NCBI GenBank assembly: GCA_001310715.1
Contig: BAXV01000134.1
Coordinates: 1-5,822, forward strand
DNA: 5,822 nt
Direction: 5' to 3'
Source: Pseudovibrio sp. JCM 19062
GTDB taxonomy: Bacteria; Pseudomonadota; Alphaproteobacteria; Rhizobiales; Stappiaceae
The translations under genes were made by a program, and so were the position numbers. The notes under the pieces were generated by a model. It made no database searches and had not been told where the DNA came from. It saw only the letters and a list, made by a program, of their open reading frames with translations. Of this stretch, positions 1-5,397 are shown one piece after another; the stretch's first letter is position 1, and each line of letters opens with the position of its first letter.

Positions 1-185
1 GTGCGGACTTGTGGTTGCTGGTGCTGCACTGCCCTGCTTCCCGCGTTCCAGAATATGCGGATAAGTTGCGCGCCGAAGGGGCACAAATGGTCACGGTGAC
101 ACCGCTGGACTACGTGTTCCACACCGCAACCCCCCTTTTTGAGCCGCTGGCCGCAAAAGTCGCCATGCAAGACTTAAGGCACTGA
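1..185 (+). CDS. hisG: Partial C-terminus of ATP phosphoribosyltransferase (HisG), probable
   Basis: Only the last 60 codons are present. They read in the frame beginning at base 3 and end with TGA at 183-185. The peptide ends with VTVTPLDYVFHTATPLFEPLAAKV and a short tail (written here as VTVTPLDYVF then HTATPLFEPLAAKV). From memory this aligns with the end of the Caulobacter HisG protein, which has VTVSRPDYVF followed by a helix. HisG condenses ATP with PRPP as the first step of histidine synthesis in the cytosol. The visible part is a C-terminal alpha/beta segment (LWLLVLHCP, then a helix with KLRAEGA, then a strand) and contains no catalytic residue, so the call rests on family resemblance alone. 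A strong hairpin terminator follows 10 bases after the stop, so this is the end of its transcript. The upstream part lies outside the window. Confidence 0.6.
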   Translation, partial: ADLWLLVLHCPASRVPEYADKLRAEGAQMVTVTPLDYVFHTATPLFEPLAAKVAMQDLRH

Positions 186-360: not shown

Positions 361-1433
361 TTACTTAAAGAAATCATCAATGAATTGAAAGCTCAATTGC
401 TTTGTATTCTTTTCTTGTTCTAGGGTTCCCTTGACATCACCAAACACTGAAGTGATATCTTGAAGATCTTGATCTGTATAAATAAGAGAAAACACGCCGT
501 GGGATTTGAAGAAATCTTTATGTTTCTTCATCTCTTTGTCAAAATTGGCCGCCGCTTCCTCATTTATTTTTTTTCTGTGTTTTATCCTTTGTTCCTGTCA
601 GTCTTCCATGAGATGACCATGGAGAAAGCTCAAAACCAACCTTGTCCATCGTATCCGGATTGATGACAGTAAAATCCAGCCGGTATTTGTGTTTTTTCTC
701 GCGGCCATCATAGCGAAACTCTGGAATCAGCAGAGGTACATCCTCTGGCTTCTCTGCATTGCGTACATATTCAGCGTACATTTCAGCAATTTCATCTTGG
801 TACTTTGAACCTGCGCTCCTCACAAGAACGCTTTTAAAGAACGTCAAGTAAGCATCTACGTCGTTGAATGTGATTTTTTCATCTTTATCGGGAACAACGA
901 GGCCAGTTTCCAAGACGTGCCCTATAGACCAATATCGCTTCTTAAAATGGCGAATTTCACTCTTATCATTTTCCCATTGGCCATTCTTGAAGCGTGGTGA
1001 AATGAAGAGTCCAAAGTCCGCATTATTCTGCCCAATCCAAAGCTCTGCCTCATTTACTGTTGGACGTTTTTTTATACAACTCTTCATAGTGGCTAAGGTA
1101 TGAGCGCCGTAAAAACTTATCTAGGTATTCCTTTAGAGCACTCGACTGCTTAATTATATCAAATAGTTCATCATACCGTGTTGTAAATCCATTGGTTGAT
1201 AAATGCTCCCGAAAGCCTTCCATCCAAAGCTGTACGTAATGATCGGGCGAATTGATGATTTCATTCTTCAGGTCAATGAATTCGCCTGTCTTACCACCAA
1301 TTAGGGCGTTTAGTGATGCCTCACTCTCAATAGTTGTTTCTTCTAATACTCTTGGAAGTATACTCCGCAACTCTTTCTTAAGAGATTTAATAAGTTTGTT
1401 ACGGGCCGTTTTGGCTGGATCACGTTTCGCCAT
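361..1433 (-). pseudogene. Cargo 1: conserved-looking protein of unknown function, two homopolymer frameshifts
   Basis: Three overlapping minus-strand frames form one protein. Frame 1 starts at ATG 1433 (MAKRDPAKTARNKLIK). The frame changes at an A7 run (1067-1073), and again at an A8 run (567-574). The last frame ends in DDFFK and TAA at 361-363. Removing one A from each run gives a continuous 356-residue product with no other stop, and 1073 minus 2 bases is exactly 357 codons. As read, the pieces are 1050-1433 and 560-1087, plus an unlisted tail at 361-559. The protein has a lysine-rich N-terminus, a helical middle, and a C-terminal part with PEFRYDG (237-243), YRLDF (250-254) and FELSPWSSHG (267-276). 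The acidic spacing E238, D253, E268 recalls PD-(D/E)XK nucleases, but the usual final lysine is absent (E-L-S). I do not recognise the family with certainty. The gene is AT-rich compared with tag and cheZ, which suggests transfer. It is convergent with hisG and has its own promoter. Confidence 0.75.
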
Positions 1434-1607: not shown

Positions 1608-1742
1608 TGGTCGTTGACCATTCCCATGGCTTGCATGAAGGCGTAGGCGGTGGTTAGGGCCAGCACAGAACCAGCCACGTTTCTTCAAGTCTTGGGAGAT
1701 GGAGGTGGAAATCTCTATTTTGTCCACTTGGCGGAGGATGGC
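1608..1742 (-). repeat. Degenerate copy A of the tag 3' region
   Basis: This stretch aligns with the intact tag gene at about 3852-3985, same strand. By hand it matches about 107 of 129 positions, with one 1-base insertion. Read as tag it gives LRQVDKIEISTSIS and then QDLKKRGW, against LRQLGKTEISTTIS and KDLKKRGW in the intact gene. After a frameshift in the GPTT region it continues as YAFMQAMGMVND. It stops at VND, so it lacks the zinc-binding HVEGCCC end and the stop region. Several differences in the LKKRG part are synonymous third-position changes, as expected if it came from a once-functional tag. It cannot make a glycosylase. It separates cargo 1 from cargo 2. Confidence 0.9.
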
Positions 1743-2056
1743 GATCAGGTGTGACTGGAATGCTATGGGCGTTCTAGCGGCTCTCGGTCTGGTGGCTGTT
1801 GTCTCTTGCAGGTTATTTGTCTGAGCCTTACCTGAATTCTCAAAGATCCCCTAACCCTAATGGTTATCACTCATATATCTCGGATTCGCTTATTGATATC
1901 TAGAAGTTTCTGGCAAATGGGCCGCTTGTTCAATCCTGTGACGGGTCGTTAGAGGAATCCGGCAGAGAGGTAGCCATAAAAGGGTTTTGGTTGGCAGGGC
2001 GGCGGGCCAGTGTAATTCTGATTAATGTGAGAGCCACTTAGTGGCCGCGAGGAAAC
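1743..2056. other. Non-coding stretch between tag copy A and cargo 2
   Basis: No convincing reading frame is present on either strand. Any similarity to tag fades out just inside the left end. Close to the cargo 2 start there is a short palindrome, GCCAC-TTA-GTGGC (2033-2045). It is followed by a GAGGA Shine-Dalgarno-like stretch (2049-2053) only three bases from ATG 2057. I found no persuasive -35/-10 pair. The stretch most likely holds the cargo 2 promoter and leader. Confidence 0.6.
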
Positions 2057-2799
2057 ATGAGAACGCAGAGGAATAGTTGGATCATCGGCAGCTTACTCGC
2101 CGTATCCATAGTCGGCACAGCCTATGGAGAGGACATGAATCTCACCGACCAACAACTCGAAGCTGCAATCCAGAGCCGCCTGACAGATCAACTGGGAAGT
2201 GCAGAAGAGGCGACAAGACTGAGCGATTTCTTGATGCGCGAGGTTTTGACGTGGAAACCGGCAGTAACCAACATTGATGATGCAGACAGCATTATCGCAT
2301 ATGCCTTTGGAAACCGCCTTGATGCCCACGCAATCGATTACCGGGTCCGATGAACCAGCAACTGGCAGATGTTGTTGTCGATATTTATAATGAGATCCAC
2401 AAGCCAGTATATGCACAATGGGAGATTGCCGAGGAGATTGGTGACCGTATTCCAGCGGCAGATTTGGTCTCAATTGAGCCGCTGATCAACGACAATGGCG
2501 ATGTGGTTTACCTGAGCACCAGAGGTGTTGCCGAAGAGGTCGTTCAGCATGTAGGCGGGGCGGATAATTTGGGAACCGCCGTTGTGGTCGGTTTTTACGA
2601 ACATCATCTGCGTACTGTTGAAACCTCTCGCGCTTTGGGGATTAACGCCTTTGGTCCCGAAGGATACCCCATGCCCCATAATTACGACGCAGACTCCGGC
2701 CAACCATGGACACGCGACGCCGCCAATTTCATCTTGTACGAGGTGGCAGTTCGAGCCGGCGTAGAACGTGAGCAACTCACGAACGCTCAAGACGATTAG
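2057..2799 (+). pseudogene. Cargo 2: exported DUF218/YdcF-like protein split by a probable frameshift
   Basis: Two frames overlap at ATGA: 2057-2353 and 2350-2799. I read them as one gene with a base missing near 2330-2331. Adding one G there turns the junction into LDAHGNRLPGPMNQQLADVV. The whole then becomes 248 codons (247 residues). The N-terminus is a signal peptide: basic MRTQR, a hydrophobic core IIGSLLAVSIVG, and likely cleavage after TAYG. The mature part contains ADSIIAYAFGNRL, then a helix (MNQQLADVVVDIY) followed by KPVYAQWEIAEE, then YLSTRGVAEEVV, then TAVVVGFYEHHLRTVETSRALG. This order resembles DUF218 proteins (YdcF, SanA, ElyC type), whose members act at the envelope. The match is by layout and no reaction can be assigned. 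Alternatively the ATGA overlap could be a real two-gene coupling, but the second piece would then lack a start of its own kind and a signal peptide. It is flanked by tag copies A and B. Confidence 0.65.
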
Positions 2800-2808
2800 T
2801 CTTGAGCG
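2784..2808 (+). terminator. Perfect stem-loop overlapping the cargo 2 stop codon
   Basis: CGCTCAAGAC (2784-2793) pairs with GTCTTGAGCG (2799-2808) around the loop GATTA. The TAG stop (2797-2799) lies in the loop and first stem base. No T-run follows (CCGTAAATTTG), so it may protect the transcript end or be a weak terminator. Confidence 0.5.
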
Positions 2809-2837
2809 CCGTAAATTTGAAGGTATTCGGAAGGCTG

Positions 2838-2869
2838 GCAACGAGGTGGCAATGACACTGCCTCGTTGC
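2838..2869 (+). terminator. Second hairpin downstream of cargo 2
   Basis: GCAACGAGG (2838-2846) pairs with CCTCGTTGC (2861-2869) across a 14-base loop. The bases after it are TGTTGCAGCTTTG, with no strong T-run. It lies just before tag copy B and could end the cargo 2 transcript together with the hairpin upstream. Confidence 0.4.
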
Positions 2870-2895
2870 TGTTGCAGCTTTGCAGCGCCCAAGCG

Positions 2896-3071
2896 TATCC
2901 CCCTATACAGGCCGCACTAATACCTCGCGTTTTGCTTCCACCACGTCGCGGCAGCAGCAGCCTTCTACGTGGTCGTTGACCATGCCCATGGCTTGCATGA
3001 AGGCGTAGACGGTGGCTGGGTCGGCGAAAGAGGAGCCGCGTTTTTTTCAGGTCTTTGGAGATGGCGGTGGA
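2896..3071 (-). repeat. Copy B of the tag 3' end
   Basis: This aligns with 3778-3952 of the intact tag locus. I count about 159 identities in 175 aligned positions plus one extra T (a run of 7 at 3041-3047 against 6 at 3923-3928). It keeps the tag stop codon, the VRPV end, the HVEGCCC zinc-site segment and the YAFMQAMGMVNDH core. It also keeps the 7 bases TATCCCC just past the stop. Changes near the stop are mostly synonymous or conservative. Toward the inner end the conserved GWSFVGPTT has become GSSFADPAT, and the extra T shifts the frame, so that end is decaying. It has no 5' part of tag. It separates cargo 2 from cargo 3. Confidence 0.95.
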
Positions 3072-3143
3072 TATTAGAATTCCATTGGATGACCTAATCG
3101 TTTGCTCGTCGTGCGAGGCCTGCTACATTTTGCAGTCCATCAA

Positions 3144-3170
3144 TTGGATTCGAGAAAGACCCAAAATAAT
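3144..3170 (+). promoter_or_regulatory. Weak candidate promoter for the GNAT gene
   Basis: TTGGAT (3144-3149) and AATAAT (3165-3170) lie upstream of ATG 3197 with a short 15-base spacing. The -10 is good (5 of 6), while the -35 and the spacing are poor. The surrounding 3072-3196 stretch is AT-rich and otherwise empty. Confidence 0.25.
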
Positions 3171-3196
3171 TATTTCCTCTAAGGGAGAATTTTGTA

Positions 3197-3763
3197 ATGG
3201 TGACTGCCGATTTGCATGCTGGTTGCTTGTTGAGTGAGCGTATTCATCTCATACCGCCGAGCGCTGTCAGAGTTGACGAAATGCACACTCTCATTGCGAA
3301 CTTCGGGCAGTTGCACTCCCAATTTCTTGACTGGGTCGGTAATCCGCCCTCTCCTGAGAAAACATCTCATAACATGCAAGTCGCTATTAAGAACTTCAGT
3401 GAGGGCAAGGAAGAATACAAATTCTTAATTGTAGACAACCAAACCGAAAATCTGCTCGGCTGTATAAGTCTGTTTATTCGCAATCCCTTAATCCCTTTCT
3501 TCGAGATAGGGTATTGGTTAGGAAATGGTGCAATGGGAAAAGGTTTTGCAACAGAAGCATGCGCACTCATTAAAACGATCGCGTTGGATTTCTTCAACGC
3601 TAAACGGCTAGAAATAAGAACAGCGAAGCGAAACACTCGCAGCATCAGAGTTGCGGAGCGCGCAGGGTTTCAATTGGAAGCTATATTAGTAAATGAACGC
3701 ATAGATAAAAATGGCGAGCTGGATGACACCTGCATTTACGTATGCCCGAAACTTCCAAAATGA
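3197..3763 (+). CDS. Cargo 3: GNAT N-acetyltransferase, RimJ/RimL type
   Basis: This is an intact 188-residue protein. GNAT enzymes of the RimJ/RimL group move the acetyl group of acetyl-CoA onto an amine, often a protein N-terminus; the substrate here is unknown. It starts with a typical LLSERIHLIPPS strand near residues 11-22. The centre has LLGCISLFIRN, then FEIGYWLGNGAMGKGFATEA, the acetyl-CoA-binding motif A with its pyrophosphate loop (GKGFATEA). It continues with KRLEIRTAKRNTRSIRVAERAGF, the conserved segment in which asparagine and serine precede the ERAGF helix. The length is normal for the family. AAGGGAG (3181-3187) stands 9 bases before ATG 3197 and fixes the start. Its stop is 21 bases from the convergent tag stop, with no terminator between. 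Base use is more AT-rich than tag, which suggests acquisition. It is the only undamaged cargo gene and lies next to tag. Confidence 0.9.
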   Translation: MVTADLHAGCLLSERIHLIPPSAVRVDEMHTLIANFGQLHSQFLDWVGNPPSPEKTSHNMQVAIKNFSEGKEEYKFLIVDNQTENLLGCISLFIRNPLIPFFEIGYWLGNGAMGKGFATEACALIKTIALDFFNAKRLEIRTAKRNTRSIRVAERAGFQLEAILVNERIDKNGELDDTCIYVCPKLPK

Positions 3764-3784
3764 CGCGATAGATTTCCTATCCCC

Positions 3785-4435
3785 CTATACAGGCCGCACC
3801 AGTGCCTCTCGTTTTGCTTCCACGACTTCGCGGCAGCAGCAGCCTTCTACGTGGTCGTTGACCATACCCATGGCTTGCATGAAGGCGTAGACGGTGGTGG
3901 GGCCGACGAAGGACCAGCCGCGTTTTTTCAGGTCTTTGGAGATAGTGGTGGAGATTTCTGTTTTGCCGAGTTGACGAAGGCTCGCCCAGTCGCAAACTTC
4001 AGGTCGCTGGTCGGGGGTTGGTTCCCATTTCCAGAAGTAGGCTGCGAGGGAGCCGAATTCTTCGCGCATCTCTAACGCACGGTTGGCGTTGTTGATGGTG
4101 GAGTTGATTTTGCCACGGTGGCGGATGATGCCAGCGTCCTGCACAAGGCGCTCGATATCGTTCTGCGTGAACTTGGCGACTTTCTCAAAATCAAAGCCAG
4201 CAAAGGCGGCGCGGAAGTTTTCGCGTTTGCGCAGGATGGTGAGCCATGACAGGCCGGACTGGAATCCTTCGAGGCAGATCTTCTCAAACAGACGGATATC
4301 GTTGGTGACAGGGTGTCCCCACTCATTATCGTGATAGGCTTGGTAGAACGGGTCGCCGCCATGCCACTGGCAACGGTCCTTGCCATCTTCTCCGCGAATG
4401 AGCCCCTCGGCAATCGGTGTTGTGCTCTGGTCCAT
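3785..4435 (-). CDS. tag: DNA-3-methyladenine glycosylase I
   Basis: The enzyme removes 3-methyladenine from alkylated DNA in base excision repair. The product has 216 residues. RCQWHGGDPFYQAYHDNEWG (21-40) matches the E. coli Tag start, giving Cys22 and His35 as zinc ligands and Tyr34 in the base pocket. CLEGFQSGLSW (54-64) carries the pocket Glu56 and Trp64. The strongly conserved VQDAGIIRHRGKI follows. KKRGWSFVGPTTVYAFMQAMG leads to NDHVEGCCC near the end, supplying zinc ligands His195 and Cys199. I prefer ATG 4435 over the in-frame TTG at 4456, because a GGGAAGGGCAGGG stretch lies just before the ATG and the shorter form fits the family. Everything needed for activity is present. Its last ~175-205 bases are duplicated twice to the left (copies B and A), so this gene end seems to be the insertion target that keeps being rebuilt. 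Confidence 0.97.
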   Translation of the reverse strand: MDQSTTPIAEGLIRGEDGKDRCQWHGGDPFYQAYHDNEWGHPVTNDIRLFEKICLEGFQSGLSWLTILRKRENFRAAFAGFDFEKVAKFTQNDIERLVQDAGIIRHRGKINSTINNANRALEMREEFGSLAAYFWKWEPTPDQRPEVCDWASLRQLGKTEISTTISKDLKKRGWSFVGPTTVYAFMQAMGMVNDHVEGCCCREVVEAKREALVRPV

Positions 4436-4544
4436 GGCCCTGCCCTTCCCGGTCAATTTGCTTTGCGGGTTGAGCCAGACTTGCTGTTTGGATCTGCCTT
4501 ACGACACCGCTTAAATGTTTACGTTATGTTCTCATTTAGAGCAT

Positions 4545-4593: not shown

Positions 4594-5343
4594 TCAGTCG
4601 AACAGAGCGTCGATGTCGTCCTGTGTGACGGTGCCAGCTTCCACATCCAGCGCAGGGCCGTGGAGCAGAGCTGACGCATCATCAGCTCTTTCTGCCGCGA
4701 CACGCTCGCTGATTTCCTTGAAGCTTTCGATGCCGCCCCAGATCTCGATCATGCGGATGATGCGCTCTTCCACGAAGGAGAGTGTGTTGACCACTTTGCT
4801 GATGCGCTGGCCTGTCAGATCCTGAAAGTTACAGGCTTCGAAGATGGAGACCACCTGTTCCTGAATGTCGCCCACCAGCCCTTCATGTTCAGTCGGAACC
4901 ATTGGCATAATTGTTGCCGCGTTCTGGTCGATGAGCTCGGCTGCTGTCAGGATCTGCTCGGTTGCACCTTCCGTGCCCGAGACGATTGCACCCAGCTCCA
5001 TGGTAACGCGGCCACGCTCATCGTTGTCAACGCTGGCTTTGCTGTGAAGGGCTGCGATTTCGGTTTTGGTTTCGGCGATGGCTTCATAGATGGCGTCCAA
5101 CTCGCGTTTGAGCTTGGCAGCTTCGCCGATTTCCTCACGCAGTTCCTCAGCAACGCGTTTGGACAGTTCCTGTGGGTCGGTTCCCGGCGAGGCGAGCATT
5201 TCTTTCAGGCTGGCGATTTCTTCCATGACCTGCTGGTGACGCAACTCTCCGCCATTGTCCTGAATGGGAGCACCTTTGTCGGCATGTTTGCTGCGCGCTC
5301 CGAACTGAGCCTCTACACGAAAGGTTTTTCTTACAACTGACAT
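4594..5343 (-). CDS. cheZ: Protein phosphatase CheZ
   Basis: CheZ removes the phosphate from CheY-P and so resets the chemotaxis signal at the flagellar motor. The product has 249 residues from ATG 5343. A GTG nine codons earlier (5370) is possible, but MSVVRKTFRVEAQF is the more natural start. Long charged helices fill residues 34-110, as in the CheZ coiled-coil hairpin. The catalytic segment CNFQDLTGQRISKVV (171-185) holds Asp175 and Gln179, equivalent to E. coli Asp143 and Gln147. The end, QDDIDALFD (241-249), is the CheY-binding helix, joined by a low-complexity linker. The gene is intact and GC-rich. No cheA, cheY or cheW is visible beside it; a short broken frame lies 54 bases upstream, and a divergent gene starts farther off. 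The TGA stop is followed at once by eight T. Confidence 0.93.
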   Translation of the reverse strand: MSVVRKTFRVEAQFGARSKHADKGAPIQDNGGELRHQQVMEEIASLKEMLASPGTDPQELSKRVAEELREEIGEAAKLKRELDAIYEAIAETKTEIAALHSKASVDNDERGRVTMELGAIVSGTEGATEQILTAAELIDQNAATIMPMVPTEHEGLVGDIQEQVVSIFEACNFQDLTGQRISKVVNTLSFVEERIIRMIEIWGGIESFKEISERVAAERADDASALLHGPALDVEAGTVTQDDIDALFD

Positions 5344-5397
5344 CCGAACCCCGAACCCTTGAAGCAACACTGCTTCCTAATGAAGGGCACACCGTCG

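Follow-up and report, generated by a model that had tools for sequence, protein, structure and literature searches.

The entry of single genes into bacterial chromosomes without mobile-element machinery has so far been mostly inferred. The closest described systems are the following. For type VI secretion system (T6SS) effector genes of Vibrio cholerae, sequential displacement has been described, with homology-facilitated illegitimate recombination as the mechanism favored by the authors, who also cite this idea for rhs loci (Kirchberger et al. 2017, PMC5361080). When studied in laboratory experiments, recombination of that kind entails one homologous and one illegitimate join, or closure of a circle followed by a single crossover (PMC3240628). 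Hotspots without mobile elements owe their continued variability to recombination in the core genes on either side (PMC5635113). In the tandem ssrA islands of Dehalococcoides and in CIME-like (cis-mobilizable-element-like) units, repeated gene ends punctuate a row of cargo, and many units carry no integrase (PMC3146451). The subject of this analysis is contig BAXV01000134.1 of the marine bacterium Pseudovibrio sp. JCM 19062 (assembly GCA_001310715.1). The window that was analyzed is the entire 5,822-bp contig, and the data end at its borders. On it, displaced 3' ends of tag (the gene for DNA-3-methyladenine glycosylase I) and unrelated cargo genes occupy the gap between hisG and tag. We consider it moderately probable, taking all parts together, that Pseudovibrio has a small hotspot of gene acquisition between hisG and tag, that the contig preserves the traces of two or more successive additions on the tag side of this gap, and that the stacked tag ends arose by repeated additive recombination, homologous on one side and illegitimate on the other. 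The features of the window are as follows.

18..185, plus strand: 3' end of hisG, only its last ca. 56 codons (ca. 168 bases), from alignment to other hisG genes
361..1433, minus strand: cargo 1, broken over three frames, a homologue of a 363-residue plasmid protein
1562..1607, minus strand: 46-bp end of a presumably IS3-like insertion sequence, fused to copy A, from repeat comparison
1608..1742, minus strand: copy A, a displaced tag 3' fragment minus the last ca. 22 codons, from alignment to tag
2057..2799, plus strand: cargo 2, a patchily distributed uncharacterized protein with one frameshift, intact in P. japonicus
2896..3074, minus strand: copy B, a displaced tag 3' end including the stop codon and ca. 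8 bases beyond, from alignment
3197..3763, plus strand: GNAT acetyltransferase, intact, from the open reading frame (ORF) and protein comparison
3778..3955, minus strand: the tag 3' segment that is repeated by copy B, from alignment
3785..4456, minus strand: tag, DNA-3-methyladenine glycosylase I, intact, from the ORF and protein comparison
4594..5370, minus strand: cheZ-like gene, the conserved flank of tag, from the ORF and genus comparison

An earlier note on this DNA had described two extra copies of the tag 3' end in the orientation of tag, and both were recovered in repeat and pairwise alignments. In the within-window repeat comparison, 2896-3046 and 3778-3928 were 91% identical; a 51-nt block was repeated at 1608, 2970, and 3852, and a 34-nt block at 1680, 3042, and 3923. 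In pairwise alignments to tag, copy B was identical at 159 of 176 positions (90.3%, one gap) and copy A at 88 of 103 (85.4%, one gap); the earlier note had given ca. 91% for B and ca. 83% for A. Copy B spans approximately the last 171 coding bases of tag, the stop codon, and about eight bases past it. Copy A starts ca. 25 bases farther upstream in tag, and its tag homology ends at 1608, ca. 22 codons before the stop. It is thus a tag fragment, as the note had it, but the tag terminus is absent, an insertion-sequence end being joined there instead. Copy B carries 11 private changes and a 1-nt insertion and was therefore taken to be a decayed, separate copy. E values of 4e-19 to 7e-48 were obtained for the two segments against the tag ends at loci L002-L008, a significance that rules out chance repeats. 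A simple tandem duplication of the tag end with its cargo was rejected as well, since cargo 2, not a second GNAT gene, follows B. The decay of the cargo follows the order that had been described: the GNAT frame is open (188 residues), cargo 2 has one frameshift, and cargo 1 lies in three successive frames.

The window derives from a Pseudovibrio near P. japonicus (tag, 96% at the amino-acid level; cheZ side, 91% in DNA), and the intermediate state predicted by serial addition was found in that species. Window positions 1689-3074 align without a break, at 95.2%, to positions 7887-6502 of P. japonicus locus L001. There, a working tag occupies the position of copy B; next to it come cargo 2 and what is left of A, and neither the GNAT gene nor the B junction is present. 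Cargo 2 is a single 247-residue frame in P. japonicus, whereas two overlapping frames are found in the window. Among 16 Pseudovibrio genomes, the DNA of cargo 2 matched P. japonicus only, and the GNAT stretch had no DNA match; the latter search had no positive control, but the same method found cargo 2. Relative to P. japonicus, the window thus has one additional module and one additional displaced tag end.

The most recent step is read here as a probable gain of the GNAT gene by the lineage of the window. Conversely, the stacked state could be ancestral, with P. japonicus having lost the GNAT gene by recombination between tag and copy B. Direct repeats of ca. 176 bp at 90% identity could recombine, and the site pattern described below is compatible with such a loss, but none of the 11 B-private changes is present in the P. 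japonicus tag end, and the loss would thus need to have come soon after the duplication. The array itself would still require serial insertion, and we regard a loss in P. japonicus as unlikely.

An assembly artefact at the GNAT-B junction was also considered, as the window is a single short contig and its first bases misfit hisG. The homology to hisG begins at base 18, and bases 1-17 fit none of the nine other aligned hisG rows (eight genes and a fragment on P. japonicus contig C8). The hisG border named in the earlier note accordingly stands for the last ca. 168 bases of that gene, but not for the first 17 bases of the contig; the window's hisG may itself be a displaced fragment, as on contig C8. 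On the other hand, cargo 2 between two tag ends was seen independently in P. japonicus, and B has diverged and has an insertion of its own. Furthermore, GNAT joins mid-tag, where there would be no shared word to mislead an assembler. An artefact is considered extremely unlikely.

The bases fused to copy A (1562-1607) are a dispersed repeat with matches in 5 of the 16 Pseudovibrio genomes (16 matches in one of them). Nine repeat sites were compared; six featured a 1.2-kb element, one a 371-bp part of it, and two ca. 50 bp. HTH_Tnp_1 and rve domains are found in the proteins of the 1.2-kb element, whose ends are TGAGC...CCCC, and on these grounds it is presumably an IS3-like insertion sequence. 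In P. japonicus, a tag fragment is fused to this insertion-sequence end at two places, one on contig C8 and one at the tag locus, where more has been deleted. Copy A accordingly either predates the divergence of the two lineages or was passed between them. The same fusions could suggest that insertion sequences drove the rearrangement. However, neither B nor the GNAT gene showed a match to an insertion-sequence end, as no other match to these stretches turned up in the 16 genomes and they had no repeat partner in the window, and A joins the inner side of the element end, so that the fusion looks like a later deletion; this explanation is judged very unlikely. As a separate observation, loci L129 and L135 have a ca. 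50-bp insertion-sequence end without the rest of the element, joined elsewhere at an inner point near-identical to that at A.

This shared fusion appears to be the better signal of the age of A. The earlier note had deduced an age order from falling identity to tag and had called for a tree of all tag 3' ends. Such a tree was built from 15 rows; 2 of its 12 inner branches were well supported, and the window tag, B, A, and the P. japonicus tag were not separated. In the B segment, 11 sites were private to B, five to the window tag, and three to the P. japonicus tag, one differed in all, and none paired two sequences by a shared derived base. Both the tree and the site pattern are star-like; the tree gives no dating, and percent identity alone is no proof that A came before B. 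The comparison of cargo 2 adds a further element. In its coding core (window 2089-2788), 14 of 700 positions differ from P. japonicus, even though the window copy is frameshifted; the block differs by 6.5-8.8% toward its ends, and the cheZ block by 8.5%. Because the core is closer than the cheZ block, the lineages may have exchanged the cargo 2 block since they separated.

A comparison of hisG-tag intervals in relatives, as suggested by the earlier note, revealed empty, partly filled, and other-cargo states. The interval could be assessed in 14 of the 16 genomes; L004 and L005 were excluded because tag was near a contig end and hisG was on another contig. It was empty in six (L009, L010, L014, L019, L118, and L119), with hisG ca. 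70-120 bp from tag, and filled in eight, with 2.4-10.1 kb and at least four kinds of cargo. In P. japonicus, cargo 2 is accompanied by a type VI retron reverse transcriptase and an HTH partner (the retron pair, L001 8528-9743). The cargo was Ada-AraC, EamA, and nitroreductase in P. axinellae, and EamA, nitroreductase, and MarR in genome G014; five genomes had interval proteins of a like repeat-rich look, with RTX repeats in the one that was scanned. One fixed arrangement in all relatives is excluded by the six empty and eight filled intervals and their varied cargo. Differing cargo in the same core-gene interval, with some relatives empty, are features of a hotspot without mobile elements. As in the hotspots of PMC5635113, changing cargo lies between two core genes and no integrase was seen; a double exchange is modeled there, whereas in the window old gene ends stay behind. 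The main text of a Pseudovibrio genome paper (PMC5959193) contains none of the words "glycosylase", "integrase", and "hotspot".

The cargo proteins of the window are unrelated, and cargo 1 is on the minus strand while cargo 2 and the GNAT gene are on the plus strand. The GNAT protein has 11 relatives besides itself, all of them distant (best, 54%). For cargo 2, 232 relatives were found; the named ones among the 120 listed were mostly from Vibrio, Photobacterium, Shewanella, and Francisella, with some from actinobacteria, and no relative was found in viral contigs. The cargo 1 piece matches five plasmid records and aligns to an intact 363-residue homologue in three successive frames. On a Rhizobium plasmid, this intact homologue adjoins AbiEi/AbiEii-type and abortive-infection genes; no Pfam or PADLOC family was assigned to it.

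The junctions bear on the manner of entry. The earlier note had pictured serial entry of modules at the tag 3' end in the manner of gene-end islands; repeated addition is retained, but island-like entry at one site is at odds with the varying starts and the lack of a motif. The displaced tag ends start ca. 154 (two fragments on contig C8), 171 (B), and 196 nt (A) before the gene end. Flanks of 60 bp were compared, each pair against 500 shuffles. On the cargo side, 2 of 10 pairs exceeded all 500 shuffles (A with the A of P. japonicus, and the two C8 fragments with each other), both of which are expected by descent. On the other side, one of six pairs did so (B with the P. japonicus tag), and the score of the window tag with B was reached by 22 of 500 shuffles. 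The differing start points and the lack of a shared flank motif argue against a single integrase site. No integrase was found among the window proteins, as the earlier note had stated, or in a Pfam scan of 10 cargo ORFs from four genomes. Thus, two features of an integrase-borne island that were looked for, namely an integrase gene and a fixed crossover point with a shared core or flank motif, were not found at this locus. The tag end had no match in phages, and one exact tag-end pattern had none in viral contigs. Among plasmids, 15 records (Rhizobiales, Azospirillum) had a tag end, none of them covering 80% of the query, and the whole window had no plasmid match in near mode. In open-licence text, no paper was found on this glycosylase with an integrase or attB, nor on displaced gene ends in hotspots.

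The array could nonetheless consist of CIME-like site-specific islands that lack an integrase of their own and were inserted in tandem at the tag 3' end by an integrase acting in trans. The gene is whole with a replaced 3' end, and the old ends are in direct orientation, as in known gene-end islands. The starts cluster within ca. 45 nt, and four tag ends (those of the window tag, B, the P. japonicus tag, and the second C8 fragment) agree to AGGGGGATA past the stop and then diverge, which both models allow. However, apart from the fact that no integrase was seen, there are three start points and neither a shared flank motif nor a common core. The ssrA islands (PMC3146451) use a single integration site within ssrA and have a 20-bp repeat, a 15-bp motif in common, and integrase modules; nothing of this kind was seen at tag. 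Other P. japonicus genes are affected too, and at some of them it is the 5' end that has been displaced, which a 3'-end integration site would not explain. We hold tandem insertion of this kind to be improbable.

Displaced ends were sought beyond the window, both at tag and at other genes. Of 80 tag loci compared with their flanks, two had repeats of their own tag: L001, and L039, where the repeat was confined to the stretch downstream of the stop. Among 87 family genomes, P. japonicus was the only one with short extra copies of tag that contain the stop; five further family genomes had a second tag match in an open frame of more than 200 residues, which was paralogue-like. This protein search missed the short A remnant of P. 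japonicus, and short old ends elsewhere would escape it likewise. A DNA search of the 16 genus genomes for tag ends left two without any match. Intergenic partial gene copies within 10 kb of their parent were sought in 1.603 Mb of P. japonicus (the first 1.06 Mb of contig 1, the first 0.4 Mb of contig 3, and the last 0.143 Mb of contig 8; 1,379 ORFs), and copies inside other ORFs were discarded. The yield was 11 partial copies, the tag remnant included, all 11 on the strand of their own gene. Nine were displaced outward (five 3'-half copies downstream and four 5'-half copies upstream), and two were not; for parents longer than 600 nt, the outward count was seven of seven. The same scan of a control, 0.8 Mb of Pseudovibrio G013 (662 ORFs), yielded zero partial copies. 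A looser, earlier scan of part of the same P. japonicus sequence had given 61 hits, 10 of them intergenic. A fixed length of 150-200 nt for displaced ends was rejected, because copies of 41-117 and 240-307 nt were also recovered.

The clearest case from the scan, at L193 6913-9475 (contig C1 626913-629475), is a MarR gene (628744-629475), 150 bp of whose end recur at 94.7% some 1.7 kb downstream (626913-627062). Between the gene and its copied end are a small uncharacterized protein and a GNAT protein, whose frame stops at the junction with the domain complete. P. japonicus contig C8 (L110 12331-17704) carries, at a distance from the tag locus, a pair of tag fragments together with the 3' end of hisG, all in their chromosomal relative orientation. 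These fragments flank a LysR gene, an aldolase, and a GntP permease, after which a 238-bp part of the neighboring NfeD gene is repeated; the contig may be a plasmid, although its RepC match falls under the family cut-off. With displaced ends occurring at other genes as well, tag does not stand out as a special site. The scan suggests instead a general one-sided additive recombination, or circles integrating by single crossover, which would have the same look. That such recombination is a frequent, genome-wide route of gene gain in the P. japonicus lineage, with gene ends serving as landing pads and decaying ends left behind, is put forward tentatively, as a possibility that we would not yet favor.

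We infer the recombination route and its donor from these arrangements. Incoming DNA in which a foreign gene lies behind a tag 3' end would recombine with the resident tag via homology inside the gene, and its other end would join non-homologously, either directly or after circle closure and a single crossover. The tag gene would be kept whole by taking the incoming 3' end, and the previous 3' end would be displaced outward, together with the DNA behind it, and would decay. The features expected of one-sided displacement are seen at the locus: an intact gene, then cargo, then an old end oriented like the gene; a relative in which one step is absent; and varying non-homologous junctions. By analogy, the array may be described as a serial displacement of gene ends that takes place at a housekeeping gene and involves unrelated cargo, and it would work like the known sequential displacement. 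The T6SS arrays of PMC5361080 likewise have a homology-anchored new unit, an old end or gene pushed downstream, and a repeated array with no integrase; there, however, the displaced effector and immunity genes are under selection, whereas here a repair housekeeping gene, junk ends, and unrelated cargo are involved. Homology-facilitated illegitimate recombination as treated in PMC3240628 has the same pair of joins, or the circle with a single crossover, but it consists of rare single experimental events (3e-10 per recipient cell in E. coli), in contrast to the stacked natural record described here.

Several observations weigh against repeated one-sided addition. Among the 16 genus and 87 family genomes, P. 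japonicus was the only one besides the window to show displaced tag ends, and so most fills of the interval left no such trace. The clustering of the tag start points within ca. 45 nt is what an attachment site would also give. The tag body and the tag end differ from P. japonicus by 8.7% and 5.7%, respectively (p = 0.25 in a mosaic test); by this comparison the window tag end is not detectably foreign, and the tag-end tree does not separate it from B, A, and the P. japonicus tag. The genome scan comprises one draft genome and one control, and for 4 of the 11 parents, with ORFs of 312-363 nt, the reading as a gene is doubtful; these four include both exceptions to outward displacement and one paralogue-like family. 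In the MarR case, the MarR end has matches in relatives whereas the stretch downstream of it has none, and no empty MarR site was seen.

A housekeeping gene with two separately decayed old ends, together with a relative one step earlier, provides a natural example of such gene entry, and one in which the displaced part needs no selection. If additive recombination is indeed a frequent, genome-wide route of gene gain in the P. japonicus lineage, stacked ends like those at tag would preserve a readable order of acquisition, written without a dedicated mobile element. If the process is true genome-wide in P. japonicus, its scars would be countable in any genome and could be used to measure it.

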